Source of the DNA: a virus
IMG/VR virus record: IMGVR_UViG_3300020383_000098
Coordinates: 1 to 24,696 of that record
Reading direction: 5' to 3' (one strand)
DNA length: 24,696 nt
Below, in pieces: positions 9,441 through 20,464 of the stretch; the stretch's first letter is position 1; each line of letters opens with the position of its first letter. The position numbers were made by a program, and so were the translations under genes. Under the pieces are notes generated by a model. It searched no databases, was not told where the DNA came from, and was given only the letters and a program-made list of their open reading frames with translations.

Positions 9441-9932
9441 ATGATTAATGAAGAAAATTTTATAACAGCACATTTCATAGATAATGAAAGAAAAAATATT
9501 GAAGTATTATTAAAAAGTGATGACGGAACAGCAGTCAATCCACATATACTTGAATATGATGTTAGTAATCCAAATTGTCAAGAATTATTAAAGTTTATTT
9601 CTTTAGACCAACTTCACGAAAATACTTATACTAAAAAACAAGAAGAACGAAAAGTTTTTGAGGCAATGATAAAAAGGGTTGCTCGGAAGGAAGGTCTTAT
9701 AAAAAGAATAATAGAAGATGTTGATCCTGATTTTTTTAAATTATTGTTTGACTTTTTATTGAGTAATAAGAAAGAACATATTGATAGATTGTTTAATTTT
9801 AAGATTTTTATATTTGAACAAGATGTTGTAAAAAATTCTAAAAATGAAACTATTAAATCTGCTATTAGAAAATCTAAAACACCATTAGAGGCATTAGATA
9901 ACTTTTTAATTATCTGGAAAGAAAGTAATTAG
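9441..9932 (+). CDS. Unknown 163-aa protein closing the left structural block
   Basis: I do not recognise this gene. An AGGAG site (TATAGGAGTAGATT) precedes the ATG. The N-terminal 55 residues look like a small beta domain (ITAHFIDNERKNIEVLLKSD). The rest is predicted helical and charged (KKQEERKVFEAMIKRVARKEGLI, then DFFKLLFDFLLSNKKEH), without Cys/His clusters, membrane helices or Walker motifs. The composition differs from the Thr/Ser/Gly-rich virion genes to its left, so it is more likely an assembly or regulatory protein than a fibre. Its stop overlaps the 3' end of the leftward operon by 23 bases, so the two transcription units run into each other. It may belong to the late transcript of the tail genes. 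Confidence 0.7.
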   Translation: MINEENFITAHFIDNERKNIEVLLKSDDGTAVNPHILEYDVSNPNCQELLKFISLDQLHENTYTKKQEERKVFEAMIKRVARKEGLIKRIIEDVDPDFFKLLFDFLLSNKKEHIDRLFNFKIFIFEQDVVKNSKNETIKSAIRKSKTPLEALDNFLIIWKESN

Positions 9933-10482
9933 TCCACCAACCAGACCAACCTTCTTCCATAAGAAATTGTCTTTGATTAAATAACATTATACTAAAGTTA
10001 TCATCTTTAGGTTTATACTCATTATTTTTAATAGAATAACATACCTTTTCATAAGTGTTAACAACTAACTTTTCTTTTTCTAACAGTTCATCAATACCTT
10101 TGCTGTATTTTTCTTGCCACATATTAGGGTCTTTTTTAAATGTATTGTAGATATGAGATTGGTCACCAGTCCAAGATATAATAGATGAATTGAAAGATGT
10201 ATGTTCTCTATCTCTCCACCAAGCGTGTAAAACGGTTGGGTCTTTTCTAATTAAATTAGGTACTTTATTGTAGATACAAATATCTAAATCAAAATATAAG
10301 TTTTCTCCATCTCTATAAATGTCAAACATTTGAAGTTTATTAAAAACACCTTTATAATTTTCAACTCCTATAACAACAAACTCATCATACTTTAAACCAG
10401 AGTATGTATCTATCATATGTTTCAGATTTCTTGTATACCAAGAGTCAAATTTAGTACCTGTATTTACACAAATTATTCTCAT
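9910..10482 (-). CDS. Glycosyltransferase-like protein, last gene of leftward operon
   Basis: This is a 190-aa protein with GT-A-like features. The N-terminal strand reads MRIICVNTGT, with a following FDSWYTRNLKHMID segment. A DxD motif (residues 65-67, in NLYFDLDICIYNKV) would bind the metal and nucleotide-sugar phosphates. Later come an HAWWRDREH region and a WTGDQSHIY segment. At 190 aa it is short for a glycosyltransferase, close to a bare nucleotide-binding core plus acceptor loop. An ATG seven codons upstream exists, but the start at 10482 is preferred. It forms an ATGA overlap with the stop of the upstream gene and has AAAGGA nine bases upstream. Its neighbours are other glycosyltransferases and radical SAM proteins, supporting a shared modification pathway. 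The sugar donor and acceptor are unknown. Confidence 0.7.
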   Translation of the reverse strand: MRIICVNTGTKFDSWYTRNLKHMIDTYSGLKYDEFVVIGVENYKGVFNKLQMFDIYRDGENLYFDLDICIYNKVPNLIRKDPTVLHAWWRDREHTSFNSSIISWTGDQSHIYNTFKKDPNMWQEKYSKGIDELLEKEKLVVNTYEKVCYSIKNNEYKPKDDNFSIMLFNQRQFLMEEGWSGWWTNYFLSR

Positions 10483-11564
10483 TTCCAATAATCCTTTATC
10501 CATTCATATTTGCTAGTGTGTATATTTGCGTCAGGATTAGCAAAGTGAACAATTTTTATATCATCATTTGGTTTATCTAATATCATATAGTCTTTATTAA
10601 ATTTTTTAATATAATCAATATTATTTTGTCTATCTTCATCTTCATTATTTGTTAGTTTACAAACCCATTCAGGTGGCATTAATGTTAAATTAATTTTATG
10701 TTTTTCACACATCCAATTAATAAAGTTTTGTTCTCCATAATATTTATAGTGTACTGCACCAGTTTTATACCAATTTAATTGCCATACTTCAGGACATTTT
10801 ATAAACTCGTTCCATATAATTTTACATTCACCAGATTTAAATTTTAGAAATCCTCCATTAAGTTTTAATCCATAAGATGATTTACCTCCCCACCATTTGT
10901 TGTAAGAAACTAACTCATTATCTGCTACAGGATAACCTATCATATCATCTACATTGCCTGTAATAATTTGGTCTATGTCCATAATAATAATTTCATCACC
11001 TGGTTTTTGATAGGCAAAATGTGGTGAAAAGAAAGATAGTTTGTGCCAATGATATTTTATATCACTATGGGGTTTTAAAGGTATTACTACATCTGCTTTA
11101 ACATTTGGATTATCACTATAACATATAAACTCAAATGGTATAGTGCAATTTCTTTTTAAACTATTATATAATTTTTCAACATAGTCTGGTGTGTATTTGC
11201 CTTCAAAATATAATGTACATATTTTTATTTTTTGGTTATTAGTTGTAGATGTATAACCTCTATATTTGTTTCCCTTTTCTCCTACTTTGTTAATACTATG
11301 ATTTAAAGGTACACTACAAAATCTTTGGCAAGTTTTTGCTGGATTGGTTTTTAATTCTTCAAAAAAGTCTTTCCATTCTTTACTATAAACAATATCTTCC
11401 ACCTTGTCATTATTTTCAAGTTTTAAATGTTTTTGTCTTAATCTTTTAATTTGTGGTTCTTGCCAACCTACAGGATTATCACACCAACAACAAGGTAATA
11501 AATAACCAGTTGCTGTATAAGCAAGTTCTTTTTTATATAAACATTTTGGATTAACTTTTATCAT
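10479..11564 (-). CDS. SPASM-like Cys domain fused to GT-A glycosyltransferase
   Basis: This 361-aa protein has two parts. Residues 1-90 carry Cys8, Cys25, Cys26, Cys28, Cys79 and Cys83 in a spacing like the SPASM-type auxiliary iron-sulfur region at the C-terminus of radical SAM enzymes. The segment YLLPCCWCDN is directly comparable with QVLPCCFFCN in the radical SAM protein at 12224-13315. Residues 112-361 are a GT-A glycosyltransferase. They start with IKICTLYF, have DxD at 196-198 (IIIMDIDQIITGNVDDM), LNGGF at 235-239, GEQNF at 277-281 and a C-terminal KIVHFANPD like the HF segment of GT8-type enzymes. The gene overlaps the preceding radical SAM gene by 14 bases. That gene lacks the Cys cluster, so the two products together add up to one radical SAM-SPASM enzyme plus a transferase. 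A SPASM region placed N-terminal to a glycosyltransferase is unusual. Confidence 0.75.
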   Translation of the reverse strand: MIKVNPKCLYKKELAYTATGYLLPCCWCDNPVGWQEPQIKRLRQKHLKLENNDKVEDIVYSKEWKDFFEELKTNPAKTCQRFCSVPLNHSINKVGEKGNKYRGYTSTTNNQKIKICTLYFEGKYTPDYVEKLYNSLKRNCTIPFEFICYSDNPNVKADVVIPLKPHSDIKYHWHKLSFFSPHFAYQKPGDEIIIMDIDQIITGNVDDMIGYPVADNELVSYNKWWGGKSSYGLKLNGGFLKFKSGECKIIWNEFIKCPEVWQLNWYKTGAVHYKYYGEQNFINWMCEKHKINLTLMPPEWVCKLTNNEDEDRQNNIDYIKKFNKDYMILDKPNDDIKIVHFANPDANIHTSKYEWIKDYWK

Positions 11565-12231
11565 CTTCTAATTCTAAAGCTATTTTATAATCTTTATAAA
11601 ATTCATCCCTTCTACTATTTAAATAACGGTTTGGATTTTTAGGTTTGTATGCGTCTTTAACACCCCAGCGACCTGAATAAAGTACATCAAATAAAATATT
11701 ATTATTTTTTGCCATTTGTCTAGCTTCTTCTATATTATTTTCATTATAATTAAAAACAATATATTGCCATCTGGAAGTAAGACCTCTTTTAGCAAATAAT
11801 TTCATAACTTCAAATAATTTTGGACCATCTTGATTAATTCTATACTTATGACTATCTTTTGGTAAACCATCAATACCAAATACCCATTTAGCTTTAGGAT
11901 TTGCCTCAAAGGCTTCTTCATACCATTCCATAGGTTTTTGTGAAGCAGCTGTATTAATATAAATTGGAATTTTATTATCATAACAATATTTTAACATTTC
12001 AATCATTTTAGGATTGAATATGGGGTCTGATGCTTGCCCACAAAATATTAAACCTTTTTTAAAAAATTTAGCTATTTTTAAAAAATCATCCCAAGGCATA
12101 TCAACTCCAGGTATTTTAAAACCTTGGCGTCTTATTGATTGCCTTTGGCATTTAGGACATTCTAAAGGACACCTAAAAGTAGATTCTATATTAATTTTCC
12201 TATCTGAAAAATCATAATTTGATTTAAACAT
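11551..12231 (-). CDS. Radical SAM core protein lacking its own SPASM domain
   Basis: This is a 226-aa radical SAM protein. The signature CPLECPKC (Cys21, Cys25, Cys28; CxxxCxxC) would bind the 4Fe-4S cluster that cleaves S-adenosylmethionine. FCGQASDP (63-70) is the glycine-containing SAM-binding strand, equivalent to FCGTWGDP in the neighbouring paralogue. The partial TIM barrel continues through IPIYINTAAS and WVFGIDG. Longer frames begin with GTG at 12255 or 12243. The ATG at 12231 is chosen because it leaves only an 8-base overlap with the preceding stop, and because the resulting N-terminus (MFKSNYDF) lines up with MLYNSSIDF of the paralogue. It stops after the barrel. The Cys-rich C-terminal region found in the paralogue is instead at the start of the next gene. 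The substrate is unknown; peptide or sugar are both possible. Confidence 0.85.
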   Translation of the reverse strand: MFKSNYDFSDRKINIESTFRCPLECPKCQRQSIRRQGFKIPGVDMPWDDFLKIAKFFKKGLIFCGQASDPIFNPKMIEMLKYCYDNKIPIYINTAASQKPMEWYEEAFEANPKAKWVFGIDGLPKDSHKYRINQDGPKLFEVMKLFAKRGLTSRWQYIVFNYNENNIEEARQMAKNNNILFDVLYSGRWGVKDAYKPKNPNRYLNSRRDEFYKDYKIALELEDDKS

Positions 12232-13315
12232 AACACTTTCCACAAAATTTTTCACATTGATAGACTGGTTTAGTCTTTGACCAACTATCTTGTAGTGTAG
12301 ATTGAAACCATTTGTGTTTCAATATATCTATTAGATTACTATTAAATACATTTAATTCTTTTTCATATTTTTTATATTCTAGCATTACAGGATGTTCTAC
12401 AAAATGTTTAGCTGCTTCAGGTACTTGTTTATTATAAAAATGAGAATTGCAAAAGAAACAACAAGGTAACACTTGTCCGTTTGGATTAACAACAACTTTA
12501 TTTTTAACTCCCCATTCACAAACAATTTTCATAACTTGTTTTGCTTTTCTTATTTTTTCTATTCTTTTTTTATCAGCAGTTCCCATATACTTTTTCTTTC
12601 TAACAAATCTTCTCCTATTTAATACTATAAACTCATCTTTGTCTTCAAATGTTTCACCTGTCTTTCTTAATACTTCTTTAGTTCCATCAGTTTTTGTAAA
12701 TTTTAATTCTTTAGTATTTTCAAATCTATCAGTTGCCATAATATTATGTCTAACTGATCCGTGTTCTACACATAGTTTTTCTATTTCATCTAGGTAATCT
12801 TCATTGTGTTTCCATATTAAAGTTTGAGTATAAATTATAGCTTTTGTATTTGATAGTGTGTTCATATTATTTAATATTTTATTTAAATAAGTATTTTGCC
12901 TATAAACTTCGTGCATTTTTTGATTGATACCTTCTATAGCAAAAACAACCATTAAATTTTTATCTCCAGCTACACCTAAATTCCACCAAAACTTATCATT
13001 TCTCATTGACCCATTTGTATTAATATTGATTTTTGTTTCATTATTAGTATCTCTAATATATTTTACCATATCAATAATATTATTATTTACAATAGGATCT
13101 CCCCAGGTTCCACAAAAGTCTGCTACTCTTAATCTTTTAATTACATTTTCTGGATATGCTTTCTTAAATGTTTCTAAATCCCAATTAATATCAGGTAACC
13201 AAGATTGTTTTTTCAAACCATTTAAATCAGTTCTATGGCATTGTGGACAACCTGCATTACATCTAGTTGTTATATCTAACATTACATCAAAATCAATACT
13301 AGAATTATATAACAT
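12224..13315 (-). CDS. Radical SAM/SPASM-domain enzyme
   Basis: This is a 363-aa protein with a complete two-part layout. CNAGCPQC (Cys19, Cys23, Cys26) is the CxxxCxxC SAM-cluster motif. FCGTWGDP (67-74) is the SAM-binding strand, and ININTNGS (96-103) is a later barrel strand. The C-terminal SPASM-like cluster region has Cys266, Cys285, Cys286, Cys289, Cys354, Cys358 and Cys361 (VLPCCFFC, then CEKFCGKC). Enzymes of this build typically modify ribosomal peptides or proteins, or act on sugars and cofactors, so a post-translational or carbohydrate modification is likely. A longer TTG-started frame exists. The ATG at 13315 is preferred because GAGGAG lies exactly seven bases upstream. It overlaps the preceding glycosyltransferase by 11 bases. 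A Lys/Arg-rich insert at about 200-262 separates the barrel from the Cys region and is absent from the neighbouring paralogue. Confidence 0.88.
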   Translation of the reverse strand: MLYNSSIDFDVMLDITTRCNAGCPQCHRTDLNGLKKQSWLPDINWDLETFKKAYPENVIKRLRVADFCGTWGDPIVNNNIIDMVKYIRDTNNETKININTNGSMRNDKFWWNLGVAGDKNLMVVFAIEGINQKMHEVYRQNTYLNKILNNMNTLSNTKAIIYTQTLIWKHNEDYLDEIEKLCVEHGSVRHNIMATDRFENTKELKFTKTDGTKEVLRKTGETFEDKDEFIVLNRRRFVRKKKYMGTADKKRIEKIRKAKQVMKIVCEWGVKNKVVVNPNGQVLPCCFFCNSHFYNKQVPEAAKHFVEHPVMLEYKKYEKELNVFNSNLIDILKHKWFQSTLQDSWSKTKPVYQCEKFCGKCYV

Positions 13316-14159
13316 TCCACAACTCCTCAAATCTTTTATTGATTAAATGTATCATCTTTACAGATTTTAAATCACTTGTTATCTTATCATTTTTCATTAA
13401 ATAAGTATGCCATTCTTTAGGAAGATTATACCAATCTATATTATCTTTATCTAATAGATAGTGTACAAATATTTCATTATTTGCAAAGAAAAGTTTTGAT
13501 ATTGTTTCACCAAAAAACTGTTCCTCTTTTGCTTTCTTTAAAGTATATGACATTTCATCTAGTCTTTCTGTATATCTTAATTTTGATATAGCACTAGAAT
13601 TACCTCCAAGTATTGCTGTATTTGCTATTAAATAATCTGTATCAAATTTATTGTCTGTTGCTAACATTGCTCTTTTACATACTGCTTTTACATATTCGTT
13701 ATACTTATCTTTATGAGATATTATTGTTTCAAAATCTACCTTGCCTTTTTTATAATTCTTTCTATCTGATTGCGACCACGAATCTATATTGGCGTTAGGA
13801 GCATAGACGCATATTTTATTCATATCAAAAGTTTCAAAAAAGTTTTCAGTTGTATTAGGAACCACATCTAAATCCATATATAAAACATTATCATATTCTT
13901 TACCTAATTTTTCCCATAGATATATCTTGTATAAATTAATAATATCAAATTCAAACCCATCAAATTTCTTTTTAAATTTTTGATAGAAAGTATCATTTTC
14001 ATATACTCTATATTCAGCATTACAATGTTTGGCGTATTCTTTTTTAACATCTACTAATCTATTATAATGTTTTTCTAATTGTTGTTTAGTGAATAAATGT
14101 TTTTCACTTAAATTAGGTTCTTTGTTTTCAATGTATATACTATAGATTATGTTTTTCAC
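13305..14159 (-). CDS. GT-A glycosyltransferase-like protein (paralogue 2)
   Basis: This 284-aa protein is paralogous to the gene just upstream. Shared features in order are KNIIYSIY at the N-terminus (KRVIYSLY in the paralogue), RLxxxKxEYAK near 34-44, a KI-Y/H-L-W/L helix near 78, and the DxD motif at 96-98 (VLYMDLDVVP). Then come FFE, a LIANTAILGG segment near 180 that would be the acceptor-side loop, and a C-terminal KMIHLINKRF. This is the layout of metal-dependent nucleotide-sugar transferases. An open TTG start lies seven codons upstream. GTG at 14159 is preferred because it aligns exactly with the paralogue's ATG and has GGAGG four bases upstream. It overlaps the upstream gene by 20 bases. 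The donor sugar and acceptor are unknown. The pair suggests sequential addition of two sugars or two acceptor specificities. Confidence 0.75.
   Translation of the reverse strand: MKNIIYSIYIENKEPNLSEKHLFTKQQLEKHYNRLVDVKKEYAKHCNAEYRVYENDTFYQKFKKKFDGFEFDIINLYKIYLWEKLGKEYDNVLYMDLDVVPNTTENFFETFDMNKICVYAPNANIDSWSQSDRKNYKKGKVDFETIISHKDKYNEYVKAVCKRAMLATDNKFDTDYLIANTAILGGNSSAISKLRYTERLDEMSYTLKKAKEEQFFGETISKLFFANNEIFVHYLLDKDNIDWYNLPKEWHTYLMKNDKITSDLKSVKMIHLINKRFEELWNVI
13323..13328 (-). promoter_or_regulatory. Shine-Dalgarno site that fixes the radical SAM/SPASM start
   Basis: On the minus strand the sequence GAGGAG is followed by seven bases (TTGTGGA) and then ATG at 13315. It lies inside the 3' end of the upstream glycosyltransferase gene. 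It makes the ATG, not the upstream TTG, the likely start. Confidence 0.75.
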
Positions 14160-17942: not shown

Positions 17943-18572
17943 ATGGATATTTTTATTATGCTATTAATAGGTTTTGTTTGGTATCAGTTTATTGCTATGT
18001 TTGGATTGTCAATAGGTCTACATAGACACTTTGCACACAATCAATTTAAAACATCTAAACTATACGAAGTGTTTTCATTGTTTCTAGCAATGTTGGCATT
18101 TTCAAGGTCACCATTAAGTTGGATTGGTGCTCATAGAATACACCATAGATATTCAGATACAGAAAATGATCCACACTCACCTACAAATATAGGTTTTTGG
18201 AATGTTCTTTTCAATAATTGGAAAGTTAAAAAAATAGATAGACCTTATGTAAGAGATTTATATAAAAATCCTAGAATAATATTTTTTCATAATCATTGGT
18301 TGAAATTACATATTGCAACGGCAGTTATAACTTTATTAATAAGTGTGCCAATTTTTATTATATTTGTTCTCTCACCATTAGTATTAGGTTTTTTTAGTTA
18401 TGGTATTTTTAATGCGTTAGGACATAAAGACAACAAACCAGTTACAAATAGATTTATAAATTTTTTATCTGCTGGAGAAGGTCATCATAATGTACATCAC
18501 AACAACCCTAAACAAGTTAGATTAAGTAAAGGAGATATTTCAGGATACATAATTGAAAAATATTTTATATAA
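17943..18572 (+). CDS. Membrane fatty acid desaturase (acyl-CoA/acyl-lipid delta-9 type)
   Basis: This 209-aa integral membrane desaturase has the three histidine boxes. HRHFAH lies at 27-32, HRIHH at 64-68 and HHNVHH at 181-186. It also has the conserved DPHSP (76-80) and the NALGHKDNKP segment (157-166) of the stearoyl-CoA desaturase family. Hydrophobic helices lie at about 4-24, 42-53, 122-143 and 145-158. Such enzymes use a di-iron centre, oxygen and electron donors to insert a cis double bond into an acyl chain. It is shorter than bacterial homologues (about 250-320 aa), with trimmed N- and C-termini but every ligand box kept, so it is probably active. The next gene, an Asp/Arg hydroxylase-like protein, overlaps by one base. 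It would change the unsaturation of host membrane lipids, or modify an acyl chain on an envelope molecule. Confidence 0.9.
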   Translation: MDIFIMLLIGFVWYQFIAMFGLSIGLHRHFAHNQFKTSKLYEVFSLFLAMLAFSRSPLSWIGAHRIHHRYSDTENDPHSPTNIGFWNVLFNNWKVKKIDRPYVRDLYKNPRIIFFHNHWLKLHIATAVITLLISVPIFIIFVLSPLVLGFFSYGIFNALGHKDNKPVTNRFINFLSAGEGHHNVHHNNPKQVRLSKGDISGYIIEKYFI

Positions 18573-19150
18573 TGAAGTTTGATAGAAATAGTAGCGTTGA
18601 GTGGGTTGAAATGGGATTTAATGTTCCTGTTAATTCTATATTAAGAGAGTATAGAGATATAAAAGATAGTTTAATAGAACATAGACCTGAAGATGGACAC
18701 AAAGATTGGTACGCAGTTACCTTATACGGATTTGGTTCAGATAAAACTAATAGTCATTGGGAGTATAGAAAGAAAGGTGAAAAACCTTTTGTAACAGATA
18801 TTGGACAAAAATGTTCAGGAACAATTAAATGGGTTAAGTCTTTACCTTATTCTCGTATAGATGATATTAGATTTTTAGTAATAAAACCAAAAGGATATAT
18901 TACTAAACACATTGATATGCCTGAAAGAAATTGGTTAGACCCATTAAATATTAGTATAACATATCCTGAAGGTAATAAGTTTATGTTGAATAATAAAGAG
19001 TTAAAATATAAACCTGGTATGAGTGTTGTGTTAAATGTACATTATGAACACTATGTGGAAAACAATTCAGATGAAGAAAGAATACATCTAGTGGTACACG
19101 GTAAGAAAAAGAAAGAGTTTTGGAATGATATTCACACCTGGCAACAATAA
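18572..19150 (+). CDS. Aspartyl/asparaginyl beta-hydroxylase-like oxygenase (3)
   Basis: This 192-aa protein resembles the aspartyl/asparaginyl beta-hydroxylase (Asp_Arg_Hydrox) group. It has WYAVTLYG at 46-53 and HxD at His113-Asp115 (YITKHIDMPERNW). PLNISITYPEGNKF follows on the next strands. The distal His is 157 or 160 (LNVHYEHYVEN), with a distal Arg170 in EERIHLVVHG that would hold 2-oxoglutarate. The same family contains LpxO, which hydroxylates a lipid A acyl chain. Since the desaturase stop overlaps this start by one base (TAATG), a lipid substrate is worth considering alongside a protein one. No Shine-Dalgarno is evident, so translation is probably coupled to the desaturase. Enzyme class is good; substrate is inferred. 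Confidence 0.75.
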   Translation: MKFDRNSSVEWVEMGFNVPVNSILREYRDIKDSLIEHRPEDGHKDWYAVTLYGFGSDKTNSHWEYRKKGEKPFVTDIGQKCSGTIKWVKSLPYSRIDDIRFLVIKPKGYITKHIDMPERNWLDPLNISITYPEGNKFMLNNKELKYKPGMSVVLNVHYEHYVENNSDEERIHLVVHGKKKKEFWNDIHTWQQ

Positions 19151-19670
19151 AGAAAAAAACAGAAAAGGTGATTGTGATGTACTAACTTTCGCACCAGAAG
19201 AACGTATAGACATAATAAAAAAATTAAAAGATATAGATTTTAACAACGAAGCTTTAAAAGAAAATTATCAAACTATAAATTGGTTTGACTTTGATTGTAT
19301 AACGGTTTTAATGAAAGGTGATGACATACTAGGATTTAGTTCTATTTGGCACCGTTATGAATATTACAGAAAGGGTGAAGTTAGAGTATTGAATAGGTAT
19401 TGGGAGGATCCCTCGTTAAGACAACCAGGCCATAAGTTAGCAAAAACTCATATCATCTCAACTATCAATCATCAACTTGCCTTTGCAAAACAATTAGGAT
19501 ATACAAGTGCGTTTATAAGTAAAGAAAAAAACCCTCGTATGTTTAGAAAGTTATTAGATGGTATTGAAAACAAAACAAATACTGTTTGGTCACTATCTGA
19601 TAAAAAAGTTTGTGTATGTAAAGAAGAAAACCCTAGTTGTTGGCAATATAAAGGAGAAACAAAACTATGA
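19125..19670 (+). CDS. Possible GNAT-like acyltransferase
   Basis: This 181-aa protein has a layout like GNAT N-acyltransferases. A helical start (APEERIDIIKKLKDI) is followed by a strand pair (CITVLMKGDDILGFSSIWHR, typical of the GNAT central hairpin). Then come a strand-loop (EVRVLNRYWEDPSLRQPG), a long helix (THIISTINHQLAFAKQLG) and the strand YTSAFISKEKNPR. The C-terminus has three Cys residues (VCVCKEENPSC). The expected Q/RxxGxG/A acyl-CoA loop is only loosely represented by RQPGHK, so the assignment is tentative. It overlaps the preceding oxygenase by 26 bases and has no obvious ribosome binding site, suggesting coupling. Phages of this group often carry such proteins without known function. 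Confidence 0.5.
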   Translation: MIFTPGNNKEKNRKGDCDVLTFAPEERIDIIKKLKDIDFNNEALKENYQTINWFDFDCITVLMKGDDILGFSSIWHRYEYYRKGEVRVLNRYWEDPSLRQPGHKLAKTHIISTINHQLAFAKQLGYTSAFISKEKNPRMFRKLLDGIENKTNTVWSLSDKKVCVCKEENPSCWQYKGETKL

Positions 19671-20464
19671 AGAAACGACACGAATTACCTGCATTTAAAA
19701 AGTTAAATAAAACTTTTGATGTTGATAAGATACTTGAAGTTATGAGAATAATGCCTGTTAAGGATGACCTTAAAGAAAAAGGTGGGTATGGTGAGATAGT
19801 AGGTGGTAAGTGTTGTTGTCTTCAAAAAGCATTTGGTCTAAAGTTTGATACCATAGAAGAAGCATATCAGTTTCTACAAGAAAATGATGTTGAACAATCT
19901 GCATTAAAAGAAGGTCTTGGTGGTAAAAGAATGGCGTGGGATTTTAGAAACTATGTTAAACCATTTGAAGAATACATAGAAAAAGATGACAAAGGTAAAT
20001 ATCAAGTCAACGGTTCTCCTTACAAACAAATTGCATTAACACAATATAATCCAGAAATGGAAGATAGAGTTTATGATAAAAAAATACCTAAAACAAGATT
20101 AGATGAAAGACATTATAACAAAGTAAAAGATTGGGTTAAAGGAACATATTTAGAAGAAGTATTAACTTCTTTCAAAGCAGAATTTACTAGAGCAAGAATT
20201 GCTGTTATGAATCCTGGTGCGTTTGTTTCTGAACACATTGATTACAATACAGATTATTCAGTCCGTTATCATATACCTATTACAACAAATAAAGATTGTG
20301 GTTTCTATGCTGTCAAAGATGGAGAGAAAGTCTATCAGACAATGGAACCTGGATCAGTTTGGTTTTTAAATCAAGGTTTAAGACATAGTGCTTGGAACAA
20401 AGGCACTACATCACGTTCTCACATTATTATTTCGTTTTTGACACAAGAGGATATGAATGATTAA
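19667..20464 (+). CDS. Putative 2-oxoglutarate/Fe(II) oxygenase 4 with N-terminal extension
   Basis: This 265-aa protein is the largest oxygenase in the cluster. Its catalytic half is complete: RIAVMNPGAFVSEH, then HxD at His190-Asp192. SVRYHIPI places Arg200 on the following strand. GFYAV and the EPGSVWFLN turn lead to the distal His240 (LRHSAWNKG), with a distal Arg250 (TSRSHIIISF). This is very like asparaginyl/prolyl hydroxylase-type enzymes. The N-terminal 170 residues form an additional mostly helical domain with a CCC run at 49-51 and no motif I recognise; it may bind the substrate. A strong AAGGAG lies before the ATG, which overlaps the previous stop by four bases. Confidence 0.8.
   Translation: MKKRHELPAFKKLNKTFDVDKILEVMRIMPVKDDLKEKGGYGEIVGGKCCCLQKAFGLKFDTIEEAYQFLQENDVEQSALKEGLGGKRMAWDFRNYVKPFEEYIEKDDKGKYQVNGSPYKQIALTQYNPEMEDRVYDKKIPKTRLDERHYNKVKDWVKGTYLEEVLTSFKAEFTRARIAVMNPGAFVSEHIDYNTDYSVRYHIPITTNKDCGFYAVKDGEKVYQTMEPGSVWFLNQGLRHSAWNKGTTSRSHIIISFLTQEDMND

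Follow-up and report, generated by a model that had tools for sequence, protein, structure and literature searches.

The locus studied here raises the question of how a radical SAM enzyme would work when its gene ends right after the catalytic barrel and the cluster of Cys residues expected at its C-terminus is found in the next gene, fused to a glycosyltransferase. The window, i.e., the whole stretch of DNA analyzed, is a virus record of 24,696 bases. Its VrlC-like protein was closest to the counterpart in Pelagibacter phage Mosig (60.7% identity, full length), with that of HTVC008M next, so that the window was taken as a pelagimyophage-like contig. Immediately beyond the VrlC and tail-fiber genes comes the cassette, at the position of the glycosyltransferase-rich host recognition cluster reported between VrlC and gp14 (neck gene), where radical SAM cassettes have been mentioned in passing (PMC7029224). 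On the minus strand, two GT8-like genes are followed by a single-chain radical SAM/SPASM protein, the barrel-only gene, the gene of the Cys-glycosyltransferase protein (Cys-GT) and a second glycosyltransferase-like gene (9910-10503; 'gt2' family by ORF and domain census). On its plus strand the island also encodes a fatty acid desaturase (17943-18572) and two proteins resembling aspartyl/asparaginyl beta-hydroxylases (18572-19150 and 19667-20464), and several unassigned neighbors there looked 2-oxoglutarate-oxygenase-like by eye.

The barrel-only gene (11551-12255, minus strand, GTG start) encodes a radical SAM protein of 234 aa without an auxiliary-cluster domain of its own, as judged from the ORF, an ortholog alignment and the Pfam Radical_SAM family (PF04055), whose cut-off it passed (31.7 bits vs. 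29.5). Its CX3CX2C cluster motif, CPLECPKC (Cys29, Cys33, and Cys36; 12148-12171, minus strand), was kept in every one of the 110 distinct barrels of the family. The original prediction that this gene stops after the barrel and overlaps the following one by 14 nt was borne out by the ORFs: the barrel stop falls within the start of the Cys-GT gene (overlap at 11551-11564, minus strand), whose ORF is in the +1 frame. This second gene (10479-11564, minus strand) encodes a fusion protein of 361 aa according to the ORF, the domain census and an AlphaFold2 model. It comprises a twitch-like auxiliary cluster domain (residues 1-86; 11307-11564), a variable linker (about residues 87-112; 11229-11306) leading from the twitch domain to the glycosyltransferase, and a GT-A glycosyltransferase domain (residues 113-361; 10482-11228), all on the minus strand. 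The neighboring single-chain radical SAM/SPASM protein (12224-13330, minus strand, 368 aa) stands outside the split enzyme; in Pfam it scored 32.3 bits for Radical_SAM and 20.7 bits for SPASM, slightly under the cut-off of 21.5.

The Cys domain had been described as SPASM-like, with a cluster formed by Cys8, 25, 26, 28, 79, and 83. All six residues occur at these positions, and five of them (Cys8, 25, 26, 79, and 83) were invariant in an alignment of 32 relatives; Cys25, 26, 79, and 83 were present in 66 of 66 domains, whereas Cys28 was not conserved (27/66). The SPASM assignment held in part: Pfam SPASM was matched by 30 of the 32 Cys domains (best E-value 3.8e-6), with the window copy below the cut-off (0.022), but what is present is only the first half of the motif followed by a CX3C element (C8-X11-G20-X4-C25 and then C79-X3-C83 in the window). 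Among 121 domains, the half motif CX9-15GX4C was found in its strict form in 86 and in a relaxed form in all, and CX3C in 120, whilst the full SPASM motif CX2CX5CX3C, which goes with two auxiliary clusters, was found in none. The domain is therefore accurately called twitch-like (one-cluster); a twitch is a shortened form of the SPASM domain that has a single auxiliary cluster, with four Cys ligands in BtrN (PMC9012708). The claimed likeness to the C-terminal cluster of the 12224-13330 protein proved real, though weak (hhalign E-value 1.7e-5, probability 79%). Sequence searches of the PDB with the Cys domain, the barrel and the glycosyltransferase gave no useful match. In three loci (L038, L041, and L075) a second Cys paralogue without a barrel of its own lies near the pair, possibly as an alternative auxiliary subunit.

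The relatives analyzed, for barrel and Cys domain alike, were gathered from IMG/VR. For 72 distinct barrels, the Cys domain was a separate adjacent ORF in 64 cases (59 directly downstream and 5 directly upstream), was part of the same chain in 3 and was absent in 5; four of these last barrels are truncated at or very near contig ends, and one (L043) is a genuine exception. Seen from the side of the 121 distinct Cys domains, a separate Cys ORF followed a barrel in 70 cases and preceded one in 12; 23 domains shared a chain with the barrel, 10 were joined to a glycosyltransferase and had a barrel upstream, and 6 had no barrel next to them, the latter including contig-end cuts and second copies. 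The split had been tied to the glycosyltransferase fusion; this link did not hold, as in most relatives the Cys protein stands alone and carries no glycosyltransferase. Judging from these gene arrangements, the split is the common state in a family seen here almost only in phages. Overlaps between barrel and Cys ORFs were mostly of 4-14 nt.

Short overlaps and the occurrence of single-chain relatives are what would be expected if the two ORFs were really one gene, interrupted by a sequencing error or read by programmed frameshifting. Against this, the split was present in more than 60 distinct sequences, the Cys ORF was in the +1 frame in 47 cases, in the -1 frame in 31 and in the same frame in 2, and gene order was reversed in some relatives (L041, L053, L083, and L087). 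Since frames and gene order vary in this way, the one-gene explanation was rejected as hardly credible, and two separately translated chains are the only sensible reading of the sequences. Distance matrices of barrels and Cys domains were correlated (r = 0.63, n = 77; maximum after shuffling 0.11), a value that includes the contribution of shared phage descent.

The original proposal, in which the Cys domain supplies the auxiliary-cluster part that the radical SAM chain lacks, found support in the 23 relatives in which barrel and Cys domain form one chain (Rosetta-stone cases), in the conservation of the Cys residues and in the predicted fold of one of these natural single chains (L007). The AlphaFold2 model of L007, obtained with a 90-row alignment, reached a mean pLDDT of 90.5 and a pTM of 0.89, with the Cys domain mostly at 93-97; alignments for structure prediction were made without the rows from the phage collection (Mosig). 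Foldseek placed BlsE first (4.8e-11), then SuiB, anSMEcpe, MoaA, and BtrN. With VIA-align, residues 1-307 superposed on SuiB (Z 18.8, 262 residues, 4.0 Å), MoaA (Z 18.6), and BlsE (Z 18.1), and the match to BtrN had a Z of 15.9 over 222 of 246 residues. The single chain is thus predicted to adopt one compact radical SAM/twitch fold, and the superposition over its whole length on SuiB, MoaA, BlsE, and BtrN suggests that both domains are arranged as in known SPASM/twitch enzymes. The relative shares 48% identity with the window in the barrel and about 37% in the Cys domain, and by analogy with it the Cys domain of the window would pack on the barrel. It could be argued that the Cys domain belongs instead to the glycosyltransferase, as a zinc or regulatory domain with no relation to the radical enzyme, given that the window copy scored below the Pfam SPASM cut-off and that cluster binding is a prediction. 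However, across the family this domain tracks the radical barrel and not the glycosyltransferase, besides being barrel-fused in 23 relatives, which makes such an origin very unlikely.

The second half of the fusion protein conformed to what had been expected, a GT-A transferase with a DxD motif. Residues 113-361 matched the glycosyltransferase family PHROG 1962 (2.4e-13), and both Asp residues of the motif (D196-I-D198; 10971-10979, minus strand) were present in all 23 members of the glycosyltransferase family tested. The GT-A fold matched the GT8 enzymes GlyE (2.5e-6) and glycogenin in Foldseek, and LARGE1 (Z 14.4), GT6 (about 13.5), and GlyE (13.3) in VIA-align. No Pfam family, GT8 included, was found for this domain at E-values up to 1, and no CAZy family was assigned because the structural scores for GT8 and GT6 tie. 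The AlphaFold2 model of the complete Cys-GT protein was of moderate quality (pLDDT 71.6, pTM 0.62); residues 1-12, around Cys8, were mostly disordered, and the linker had pLDDT values of about 31-52, with residues 86-109 below 50. In most pairs of the clade the linker, variable in both length and sequence, showed 33-52% identity vs. 66-90% for the Cys domain. In every clade pair tested dN was lower than dS in both the Cys and the glycosyltransferase parts. No in-frame ATG, GTG, or TTG occurs in codons 61-130 of the Cys-GT gene, and separate translation of the glycosyltransferase is therefore not expected.

Glycosyltransferases of this family also occur without any Cys domain (L002, L004, and L007). 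The stand-alone protein of L002 is 87% identical to the domain of the window, whereas in L007 and L138 the glycosyltransferase is the next, separate gene. The Cys-GT fusion comprised eight sequences forming one clade of the tree with a branch support of 99; the window, shown there as row L009, belongs to this clade, its label 'split' arising only from the glycosyltransferase being cut off at that locus. A second type of fusion joins the Cys domain to the 'gt2' family, i.e., that of the 9910-10503 gene, in L047, L051, and L063, so that a second glycosyltransferase family has captured the same Cys subunit independently. Among the relatives searched, we found no protein with radical SAM, SPASM and glycosyltransferase domains in one chain, which had been proposed as a test. 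Identities in the two parts of the fusion were discordant: L001 and L014 shared 89% in the Cys part and 67% in the glycosyltransferase, whereas the window and L014 shared 76 and 86%, respectively, which suggests recombination inside the fusion gene. The stand-alone glycosyltransferases (L002:4971-5774 and L004/L005:4971-5762) start with a leader, M(M/I)xYLNIExLTGxNFGM, nearly identical to that preceding the radical SAM barrel at L001:4291, as if the barrel/Cys pair had been excised from, or inserted at, that point.

Such features bear on whether the glycosyltransferase has any catalytic connection with the radical enzyme. The idea of a rigid module shared by radical chemistry and sugar transfer was not sustained, as the linker is variable and poorly predicted and the same glycosyltransferase exists without the Cys domain; given the 87% identical stand-alone version, the tether looks like scaffolding and not like a shared catalytic module, and the glycosyltransferase seems to be attached to the radical enzyme without being an inseparable part of its mechanism. 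The whole enzyme could even consist of the twitch subunit and the barrel, with the glycosyltransferase as a passenger fused by chance and devoid of catalytic coupling. The stand-alone glycosyltransferases, the variable linker, the signs of recombination and the fact that most pairs have no neighboring glycosyltransferase all agree with this, and fusion alone is no proof of function because adjoining overlapping genes fuse easily. Nevertheless, the fusion persisted through a clade of eight diverged sequences, and the capture of the subunit by a second glycosyltransferase family argues in the same direction; the passenger explanation thus seems possible but doubtful.

Taking these results together, we consider it probable that the window encodes a radical SAM/twitch enzyme made of two chains, in which a variable linker connects the auxiliary-cluster subunit to a glycosyltransferase, a feature of the window's clade. 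In such a heterodimer, chain 1 (11551-12255) would provide the SAM-cleaving [4Fe-4S] site on the barrel, and the twitch domain of chain 2 (residues 1-86) should hold one auxiliary [4Fe-4S] cluster with four or five Cys and close the barrel end, as in MoaA, BtrN, and BlsE. Translational coupling through the gene overlap would keep the amounts of both chains similar. Since the twitch subunit carries the GT-A domain, the radical active site of the assembled complex would lie near the site of sugar transfer.

The genomic settings of the pair offer some indication of its substrate. In one of them, defined by neighbor clustering and Pfam, the pair is accompanied by genes for DegT aminotransferase, carbamoyltransferase, epimerase, methyltransferase, GDSL, and glycosyltransferase proteins, a gene content that would correspond to a sugar or surface-glycan cassette. 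For the version of the window a sugar or glycan substrate is preferred because of both the glycosyltransferase fusion and the cassette. The complex may oxidize or rearrange a sugar or a sugar-bearing acceptor and hand the product over for transfer, as one step in a surface-glycan or virion modification cassette, a role to which we give a little less than even chances. A sugar substrate would not be general for the family, because the glycosyltransferase also stands alone and glycosyltransferase genes were found within 200 nt of just 25 of the 121 pairs.

The main alternative is a protein substrate: the radical pair would modify a peptide or protein of the phage (virion), and the modified site would then be glycosylated by the glycosyltransferase. 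Genes of the gp15/gp16 type (T4) were present in the flank of 35 of the 102 loci, and in many of them the pair stands directly between gp15 (tail sheath stabilizer) and gp16 (small terminase), followed by gp17, with no adjacent sugar genes. Loci of this second setting include L023, L029, L034, L036, and L050, and the pair sometimes occurs in two or three copies (L150, L161, and L163). The best structural matches included SuiB and anSME, whose substrates are peptides or proteins, and the glycosyltransferase fold resembles GlyE and glycogenin, both of which are protein-glycosylating enzymes. However, the sugar- or nucleoside-acting BlsE, BtrN, and DesII matched about equally well, and other copies lie in the cassettes with sugar-type genes described above, so that for the window this explanation appears unlikely, although it is not negligible. 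A broader proposal would regard the family as a virus-specific two-subunit radical SAM class with a separate and exchangeable auxiliary subunit, encoded in phage cassettes (including those between gp15 and gp16) that modify a virion or surface component, some lineages having fused the subunit to a glycosyltransferase and thereby coupled the radical step to sugar transfer; we put this forward tentatively, as a rather speculative generalization.

Compared with known systems, the chemistry and the fold are familiar, whereas the subunit architecture and the fusion partner are new. BtrN and MoaA share with the window's enzyme the CX3CX2C barrel and a half-SPASM domain for which a single auxiliary cluster is expected, and the model of the single-chain relative superposes on them over its whole length, but their twitch is the C-terminal part of the catalytic chain, whereas that of the window is a separate chain, in its clade also joined to a glycosyltransferase. 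The twitch cluster is probably an electron acceptor from the substrate radical in BtrN and takes part in substrate binding in MoaA (PMC9012708). The best structural matches of the single-chain relative, BlsE (a cytosylglucuronate decarboxylase), SuiB, anSMEcpe, SkfB, and PqqE, are likewise single chains, in contrast with the two chains of the window's enzyme, whose family lacks the full SPASM motif. In the mycofactocin pathway (MftC/MftF), too, a radical SAM enzyme of the SPASM type works together with a glycosyltransferase, but these are separate, ordinary single-chain enzymes acting on a peptide-derived cofactor. In Campylobacter phage CP220, an exchangeable phage module holds radical SAM genes next to those of nucleotide-sugar transferases (PMC2853527); its radical SAM proteins are distant relatives of the window's barrel (27.6% identity) and, unlike it, are apparently single chains with their own C-terminal Cys. 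N_Twi_rSAM (NCBIfam NF033640) is another twitch-bearing radical SAM family, with its twitch N-terminal in one chain, unlike the window, and it adjoins the pair in related phages (247.7 bits for the L001 neighbor, cut-off 170). Its gene precedes the split pair in L001 (3171-4349), L003, L007, L022, and L138 and is missing from the window, L018, and L020; one cassette can therefore combine C-terminal, N-terminal and separate twitch/SPASM domains.

In the open-access papers searched, no split or stand-alone SPASM/twitch enzyme was found described, nor any function for the phage barrel/Cys family. In the known SPASM/twitch enzymes considered, the auxiliary cluster belongs to the catalytic chain and its role is hard to isolate; with natural two-chain versions the auxiliary subunit could be omitted, exchanged or altered by mutation, so that the function of the cluster could be tested directly. 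The cultured Pelagibacter phage Mosig EXVC030M has the parts, as barrel, Cys protein, and glycosyltransferase are its genes 00084, 00085, and 00092, respectively; all three are separate, with the glycosyltransferase several kb away, in contrast with the fusion of the window.

The family was widespread in marine T4-like phages. Within 50,697 phage records, the Cys-GT protein and the barrel of the window matched Mosig, and the barrel also matched distant Campylobacter phages. Genome contigs gave four matches only, all metagenome-assembled, and no further Cys domain was found in 791 other sampled bacterial genomes of two phyla. At least one of the four (L092), a contig binned as Flavobacteriaceae, carries tail genes of the pelagimyophage type together with the pair and is probably a misbinned phage.
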